64,000 nucleotides of DNA from Gammaproteobacteria bacterium. GTDB taxonomy: Bacteria > Pseudomonadota > Gammaproteobacteria > Ga0077554 > Ga007554. Below are positions 38,758 through 43,382 of this stretch, one piece after another. The stretch is taken from positions 1 through 64,000 of the forward strand of contig JACPOZ010000049.1 of NCBI GenBank assembly GCA_016191235.1, read 5' to 3'. Position numbers and translations under genes: made by a program. Each line of letters begins with the position of its first letter. Positions within the stretch are counted from its first letter, which is position 1. The notes under the pieces are model-generated. The model saw only the letters and a program-made list of their open reading frames with translations, was not told the DNA's origin and made no database searches.

Positions 38758-41355
<2,598 letters not shown>

Positions 41356-41510
41356 CGGGAACGCGGCATCCTTACAGGCTTCATGCAAGCCCAAGAGCTT
41401 TTTGGTGTGGGGTTAACGATAACCTGCCGATCTTTTTGCATAAGCCGGAAATGTTACCATAAACATGGGACTTGCTGCACTTCAAGAATTAATCGCGCGT
41501 CTTTCTCAGG

Positions 41511-41550
41511 GTGACGACCACCCCCTTGCTCGCAAGGGGGTGGTCGTCAC
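41511..41550 (-). terminator. Perfect 18-bp hairpin after the lysine-rich microprotein gene
   Basis: Arms 41511-41528 and 41533-41550 are perfect complements with a 4-nt loop; the stem includes the run CCACCCCCTTG. It begins one base after the stop codon of the small gene on the minus strand, between it and gyrA. No T-tract follows, so it could stop polymerase poorly but protect the upstream mRNA 3' end. Confidence 0.7.
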
Positions 41551-41551
41551 C

Positions 41552-41772: not shown

Positions 41773-42267
41773 TCACGCCCCAGCAACCACCGCAACCCCA
41801 TACATCACCACCCACGCATACACCCCCGCCACGATATCATCAATCATCACCCCCATCCCGCCACCGGCATAGCGGTCAAGCAGGTGTATGGGCCAGGGTT
41901 TCCAGATGTCGAACAGGCGGAACAGGCCAAACCCTATCAGCACCCATAGCCAGCCCGCCGGGGCGGCGACCATGGCGACGAGGTAGCCTACGATTTCATC
42001 CCACACGATGCCAGGGTGGTCATGCACGCCGAGGTCATGCGTGGTGACATGGCATAGCCAGACACCTAGCGCGAACAAGGCGGCGGTGACGGCAAGATAT
42101 CCGCTGAGTGGCAGGTGTTGCAGCAACAGATAGAAGGGGATGCCAACCAGCGTACCGAAGGTGCCGGGGGCAACTTTTATGGCGCCCGCACCGAATCCGA
42201 AGGCGGCGAAATGGATGGGGTTCGACCAGATGCTGGCGGGGACATCGGGTTTTTTCACGGCACTCAA
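41773..42267 (-). CDS. pgpA: Phosphatidylglycerophosphatase A
   Basis: PgpA (164 residues) dephosphorylates phosphatidylglycerophosphate at the inner membrane. Family segments FGFGAGAIKVAPGTFGTLVGIP, IVWDEIVGYLVAM and GFGLFRLFDIWKPWPI are present, with about three to four helices. The frame opens with TTG at 42267, with GTG at 42258 as alternative. The TTG has TAGGA 7 nt before it, and that AGGA belongs to the terminal repeat of the palindromic element at 42272-42420. thiL-pgpA is a conserved pair. Confidence 0.93.
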   Translation of the reverse strand: MSAVKKPDVPASIWSNPIHFAAFGFGAGAIKVAPGTFGTLVGIPFYLLLQHLPLSGYLAVTAALFALGVWLCHVTTHDLGVHDHPGIVWDEIVGYLVAMVAAPAGWLWVLIGFGLFRLFDIWKPWPIHLLDRYAGGGMGVMIDDIVAGVYAWVVMYGVAVVAGA

Positions 42268-42271
42268 GCGC

Positions 42272-42420
42272 TATTCCTACCGCATCACAAAGTGCTGAAG
42301 GGCGCATTGCGGCGTTAAAATCGGACTCAAAATGCTCACATACTTCATGTATGCTCCGCTTTTTCGCCCGATTTTGCCTTGCACTGCATCCCTTGATCAC
42401 TTTGTGACACAGTAGGACTA
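42272..42420. mobile_element. 149-bp palindromic element spanning the thiL-pgpA junction
   Basis: The ends TATTCCTAC (42272-42280) and GTAGGACTA (42412-42420) are inverted, with nested pairs CACAAAGTG / CACTTTGTG, AAAATCGG / CCGATTTT and CATAC / GTATG continuing to the centre. It is a nearly full-length palindrome without a transposase. It overlaps the last 24 codons and the stop of thiL. A target duplication could not be recognised. Confidence 0.72.
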
Positions 42421-43382
42421 AAATGCTGATAACCGCCGACAGTGGGTTCAAAGACCTCACCATTGAGCAGGCAACGCAGACCGTGCGGGCTTTCGATCAC
42501 GCCGATGCGTGTGCAGCCGCCGGGAAAACGGGCGAGAAGCTGTTCGGCTTCTGCCTGCTTTTCGGGGGGGACGGTAAAGCATAACTCATAATCATCGCCG
42601 CCGGAGAGCGGCAAATTCCACCGCTCCCTGTGCTTTGCCATTGCGGTGAAGGCGGTGGACACCGGGATATGCTCGACTTCCAGCGTCGCGCCAACGCCGC
42701 TGGCCTTGAGGATGTGGCCGAGATCGGCAGTCAGGCCGTCGGATATGTCGATAGCCGCGGAAGCAATGCCGCGCAAGGCTATCCCTGTCTGGATACGCGG
42801 TGTGGGGCGCTCCAGCCGCTCGGCAAGAAAGGCTGCATGGGTGTGCGCCAACTCTTCCGTGTTGCCGCTCCGCATGCGTAAGGCCAAGGCGGCGTCGCCC
42901 AGTGTGCCGGTGACATAAATCACATCGCCGGGGCGCGTGCCTGCGCGGCGTAGCGCCATGCCTTCCGGCACAAAACCGTGCATCTGCACGGTCAGGGTGA
43001 GCGGCCCACGGCAGGTGTCGCCGCCGACCAGTTGCACACCGCATCGTCCGGCCAGCGCAAACAGACCCGCGCTGAAGGCCGCCAGCCAGGCTTCATCGGA
43101 CTGCGGCAGGGTGAGCGCAAGGGTGGCCCATGCAGGCTCGGCGCCCATCGCGGCCATATCGCTGAGGTTGACGGCCAGCACCTTGTAGCCAACTGCGGCG
43201 GGATCGGCATCGGGGAAGAAATGCACGCCGGACACCATGGTATCCATCGCCACCACCAGATCACTGCCGGACGGCACACGCAGCACCGCGCCGTCATCGC
43301 TGATGCCGAGCACCACATCTGGGCGCGTGACACCATGATGGGCAAAATAGCGATTGATGAGATCGAATTCTGATAGCGGCAT
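42345..43382 (-). CDS. thiL: Thiamine-monophosphate kinase with element-derived tail
   Basis: ThiL (345 residues) phosphorylates thiamine monophosphate to the active cofactor. The N terminus MPLSEFDLINRYF, GISDDGAVL (metal/ATP Asp), VAMDTMVSGVHF, VGGDTCRGPLTLTVQMHG and DISDGLTADLGHI are canonical. Residues 322-345, starting SPTVSQSDQG and ending GEKAEHT, are encoded by the palindromic element at 42272-42420, so the natural end was probably near GGYQHF at 321. The fold is expected to be complete without this tail. It lies 3 nt after nusB. Confidence 0.95.
   Translation of the reverse strand: MPLSEFDLINRYFAHHGVTRPDVVLGISDDGAVLRVPSGSDLVVAMDTMVSGVHFFPDADPAAVGYKVLAVNLSDMAAMGAEPAWATLALTLPQSDEAWLAAFSAGLFALAGRCGVQLVGGDTCRGPLTLTVQMHGFVPEGMALRRAGTRPGDVIYVTGTLGDAALALRMRSGNTEELAHTHAAFLAERLERPTPRIQTGIALRGIASAAIDISDGLTADLGHILKASGVGATLEVEHIPVSTAFTAMAKHRERWNLPLSGGDDYELCFTVPPEKQAEAEQLLARFPGGCTRIGVIESPHGLRCLLNGEVFEPTVGGYQHFSPTVSQSDQGMQCKAKSGEKAEHT

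Follow-up and report, generated by a model that had tools for sequence, protein, structure and literature searches.

We describe a 143-bp palindromic MITE that has very probably inserted at the end of thiL in a gammaproteobacterial genome, adding a tail of 23 residues to ThiL. The features involved are listed in Table 1; the window is the whole stretch of DNA that was analysed, 64,000 nucleotides in length. In the sequence of events that we propose with good confidence, a non-autonomous, MITE-like palindrome of 143 bp entered a TTAG site in the ribH-nusB-thiL-pgpA cluster, 7 nt short of where the thiL stop codon ended. This removed the last residue and the stop of thiL and gave the gene 23 new codons, which are followed by a TGA stop in the centre of the element. 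Because TTAG is out of frame as a stop at this site, the thiL reading frame continues through the 5′ arm to the central TGA, and the former thiL-pgpA junction now lies 77 nt downstream of the new thiL stop.

Table 1. Features at the thiL-pgpA junction (positions in the window)
Feature	Position	Strand	Remarks
thiL, thiamine-phosphate kinase, 345 aa	42345..43382	-	TIGR01379, PRK05731, AIRS/AIRS_C
Target-site duplication copy 1, TTAG on thiL strand	42418..42421	-	
Palindromic MITE, 143 bp, end type A (TCCTACTGTGTCACAAAG...CACAGTAGGA in family consensus)	42275..42417	-	core 42294-42398
Element-encoded C-terminal extension of 23 codons, PTVSQSDQGMQCKAKSGEKAEHT, plus TGA at 42347-42345	42345..42416	-	read from sequence
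GTAGGA element end, with AGGA as candidate Shine–Dalgarno	42275..42280	-	putative function
Target-site duplication copy 2, ATAG on thiL strand, one substitution	42271..42274	-	
pgpA, phosphatidylglycerophosphatase A, from TTG 42267	41773..42267	-	PF04608 E 5e-41, NCBIfam

The palindrome at the thiL-pgpA junction is real and exceeds chance. Inverted arms were detected at 42272-42302 and 42390-42420, and the predicted folds of both the RNA (-79.3 kcal/mol, z -10.8) and the DNA (-32.2 kcal/mol, z -6.1) were equalled or bettered by none of 200 shuffled sequences. A sequence-only reading of the window had proposed a full-length palindrome of 149 bp at 42272-42420. The arms and folds confirm the palindrome, but comparison with 42 other copies sets its boundaries at exactly 143 bp, the remainder being three bases of the target duplication on each side. 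The element carries no transposase ORF, and we found no Rfam match, promoter or intrinsic terminator within it. Elsewhere in the window, a perfect-looking inverted repeat (GGTGACGACCACCCCCTTGC/GCAAGGGGGTGGTCGTCACC, 41510-41551) lies just upstream of a gyrA-like gene (38758-41394, minus strand).

Three genomes of the same genus (G001-G003), with ThiL proteins that are 91% identical, lack the element at this junction. In these relatives thiL ends in ...YQHFSx-stop (SL-stop, SN-stop or SA-stop across the three), and in two of them, as well as in G005, the stop overlaps the TTG of pgpA as TTGA. The junction reads CAGCATTTTAG-TGCTTGAGTGCCGTG in G003 and CAGCATTTTAG-(TCCTAC...GTAGGA)-ATAG-CGCTTGAGTGCCGTG in the window. 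Relative to the thiL stop, the pgpA start lies at +77 in the window, compared with an extrapolated -4 in the relatives without the element. Judging from these alignments, the ancestral thiL most likely ended in SA-stop, with the stop overlapping the pgpA TTG as TTGA.

The insertion is present in one genome, a 2.1-Mb MAG that is 79% complete and divided into 73 contigs; the named relatives are also MAGs, from uncultured Gammaproteobacteria. Could the junction be an assembly chimera formed at a repeated palindrome? The number of contigs and the dozens of repeat copies would favour such an error, but a chimera would join unrelated flanks, and the flanks observed here are those of the same thiL-pgpA junction as in the relatives, together with a target duplication. 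We consider this explanation hardly credible.

The conserved part of ThiL ends just before the palindrome, as had been noticed from the sequence: the family models TIGR01379 (NCBIfam) and PRK05731 cover residues 5-321 and 1-322, respectively. Residues 323-345 are derived from the element, and Ser322 is ancestral, with a codon that spans the junction. The element-encoded tail is missing from all the relatives examined. In the other complete thiL loci that were retrieved, in-frame tails past residue 321 consist of 0-9 codons before the first stop, the larger raw counts being those that include internal stops. The earlier suggestion that a palindromic element supplied the tail is therefore upheld: three genomes of the same genus have an empty site, the target duplication is 4 bp long, many copies of the element exist, and the tail is absent where relatives lack the element. 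We infer that the tail is a tolerated addition and is probably disordered. Both genes had also been called 'essential-type', which is a fair label for thiL in a thiamine prototroph. In E. coli, pgpA alone is dispensable, and pgpB and pgpC overlap with it in function.

The element belongs to a repeat family. A search of its own genome, an incomplete MAG, returned 31 BLAST matches, corresponding to about 25 copies. At least 15 matches were found in each of seven relatives from the same genus and family, and matches are sporadic elsewhere in the class. We collected 76 copies, of which 43 have A ends, 30 have B ends (GAACCTGTTCACGATCTC) and 3 have C ends (GGGCACYTCTAAAAATTC). The A-type ends are 18-19 bp long, with at most six mismatches summed over both ends, and are accompanied by a 4-bp NTAN duplication that is exact in 18 of the 43 copies and has at most one mismatch in 34. 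The B ends are accompanied by a 3-bp TNA duplication (25/30). Allowing up to one mismatch, the A-type end was found only in G000-G003 among 369 genomes of the class, a sample that excluded G004-G007, which carry this end with up to two mismatches. Single A-type ends in G003 and G001 (L176-L180) were considered as IS ends and rejected, as they have the appearance of eroded or deleted copies.

Copies with different ends (L001-L030 and L141-L227, e.g. L002, L007 and L022) share a core of about 105 bp (GATCAAGGG...CCCTTCAGC), which is joined to these ends at identical positions. The identity between the cores of A and B copies reaches 98%, and the core of the window copy is 97.1% identical to those of B copies in G002 and G003. 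The family appears to have switched transposase, because a single 105-bp core is found with terminal repeats of three or more unrelated pairs. In G004, an 865-bp IS with a DDE_Tnp_1 transposase and a TAA duplication has terminal repeats that match the B ends; in this respect the family resembles the IS5-family ISs and their MITEs. Unlike these, the A-type ends of the window copy have no autonomous element that we could find among the loci and genomes searched. Among the best PF01609 and PF13586 matches in the genomes that host the family, which are the matches that were scanned, only B-type ends are shared with an autonomous IS5-family element, and no element with A-type ends was seen. A pattern search of the 369 class genomes, a scan of viral contigs, and plasmid and phage searches also returned no autonomous A-type partner. 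The TNA and YTAR-like duplications of the family fit subgroups of IS5.

A tree of the core requires six changes of end type, where the minimum possible is two; this count is rough, as the alignment has few columns and the tree many unresolved forks, and the well-supported branches force two to three changes per type. It is, in our view, an even bet that the 105-bp core has repeatedly swapped matched pairs of ends (A, with 4-bp NTAN duplications; B, with 3-bp TNA duplications and IS5-family ends; and C, a third pair), i.e. that it is an IS parasite changing its host transposase, perhaps helped by arm-to-arm copying within the palindrome. A limited literature search found no precedent for a bacterial MITE core whose matched ends are interchangeable. 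Related central cores with other end sequences (e.g. TTAGCAGGTTGTTGAAAAA) are also found in distant gammaproteobacteria (L229 and L230, in G028 and G040).

Where do the copies sit relative to genes? We scored 40 neighbouring gene 3′ ends as coding by codon usage, which makes the individual cases provisional: 21 fall on the duplicated site, another 18 lie 3-358 nt short of it and one, that of thiL, is cut inside the coding region. Genes with the element on the duplicated site keep their stop codon (e.g. at L004, L015, L021, L142, L160 and L166), and the duplicated target in these cases contains TAA, TAG or TGA. Insertion on stop codons is easy because the NTAN and TNA targets include these three triplets, and thiL is the exception because TTAG is out of frame there. 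A habit like that of the Rickettsia palindromic elements (RPE) was rejected, since 39 of the 40 scored gene ends lie at or before the element. Two weaker cases of fusion were seen. A PEP-CTERM-like gene in G007 (L175, 1500-1685) reads through an element copy, which gives the protein a long extension beyond its sorting signal. The other case is a fusion of 7 codons to a rhombosortase of G002 (L211). At L002 and L146, the ORFs that run into the element appear to be non-coding frames and were rejected as fusions.

The sequence-only reading had also assigned the ribosome-binding site of pgpA to the element. An AGGA at 42278-42275 does lie 7 nt before the TTG, and from its position it is plausible that the element supplies this site. 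The claim is weakened by a better-conserved alternative start at codon 4 (GTG, 42258-42256), 9 nt beyond the TTG and 16 nt from the AGGA, and by the pairing of the AGGA in the free mRNA. The TTG was dropped as a certain start, since G001 has TTT at this position, with an ATG at codon 4 as its aligned start. No obvious Shine–Dalgarno sequence was found upstream of the pgpA starts of the relatives, whether TTG or codon 4. Across the window, a 4-nt Shine–Dalgarno core was found for 12 of 39 genes, compared with 5 of 39 control positions, therefore the dependence on such sequences is modest.

How might pgpA now be translated? Probably read in the past by termination-reinitiation at the overlap, the gene would now rely on a start whose closest AGGA is formed by the last bases of the element. 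Reinitiation by the same ribosome is unlikely because of the +77 spacing. In the computed fold of the free mRNA, GUAGGA pairs with the UCCUAC of the 5′ arm and the probability that the Shine–Dalgarno sequence is unpaired is about 0; this rises to 0.26-0.72, but solely if the entire 5′ arm is kept open. According to this model, termination of one ribosome at the TGA is not enough to open the AGGA; the upstream arm must be covered as well. Ribosomes that translate thiL up to the central stop would disrupt the 5′ arm and could expose the AGGA, and coupling may persist through this unfolding of the RNA, probably with a lower efficiency. Coupling by RNA unfolding has been documented across a long hairpin and at a spacing of +52 (PMC12548453). 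For pgpA, we propose the unfolding step tentatively and lean towards doubting it.

A plainer explanation, to which we give nearly an even chance, is that the insertion is simply tolerated: ThiL still works with a neutral tail, the conserved GTG or TTG gives weak or redundant translation of pgpA unaided by the element, and there has been no recruitment. A GTG or ATG at codon 4 is found in all members of the genus, and the relatives have no obvious Shine–Dalgarno sequence, so their start works without one. Of the 12 departures of the window copy from the family consensus, 8 fall within the 3′ arm, although most other copies vary too. However, the 7-nt spacing between the AGGA and the TTG is close to the optimum, and the former overlap, which would have driven reinitiation, has been lost. 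A further possibility is domestication, where the tail or a hairpin switch has been selected, e.g. one that ties the translation of pgpA to that of thiL. The 24-codon run of thiL is free of frameshifts and stops, and three substitutions near the 3′ end of the element (C134T, A135G and A137G) retain RNA pairing as G-U wobbles. That said, three transitions that keep the pairing as wobbles would not be an improbable outcome of chance, most copies are in any case intact at 143 bp, and the insertion is known from a single sequence. We regard domestication as improbable.

MITE-derived C-terminal tails are already known, and the insertion in thiL adds a new case in which the state before insertion is clear. 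A good comparison is the amidase gene ECA3499 of Erwinia carotovora, where the native stop is replaced by a tail from RU-1 (PMC2759123). As in thiL, a palindromic MITE, there the enterobacterial ERIC/RU-1, lies at the 3′ end of a conserved enzyme gene, the native stop is lost, the tail extends beyond the conserved domain and the new stop is inside the element. The sequences are unrelated, and ERIC has TA duplications where the window family has 4-bp NTAN; in the accessible part of the source, no overlapping downstream gene is described for ECA3499 (PMC2759123). The RPE are also palindromes of about 150 bp that are read in frame as protein in conserved genes, and represent the extreme case of palindromic elements read in this way (reviewed in PMC10969869). 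They are frequently inside genes, whereas the window family is mostly found at or outside gene ends, with clear IS-type ends and target duplications. The Tn3-derived miniature elements (TIME) are likewise non-autonomous and form mosaics (PMC4133298), but they carry different cargo between the same ends, whereas here the same core lies between different ends.

The thiL-pgpA junction offers a before-and-after case, with a 4-base overlap in the relatives and an insertion here, where a MITE has altered how one gene of an operon ends and the context in which the following gene is translated. As both states are available, the effect on coupling is directly testable. The family itself suggests that non-autonomous elements can swap transposase by means of matched ends around a fixed core. 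If true, transposase swapping would help to account for the persistence of MITEs whose parent IS has been lost.
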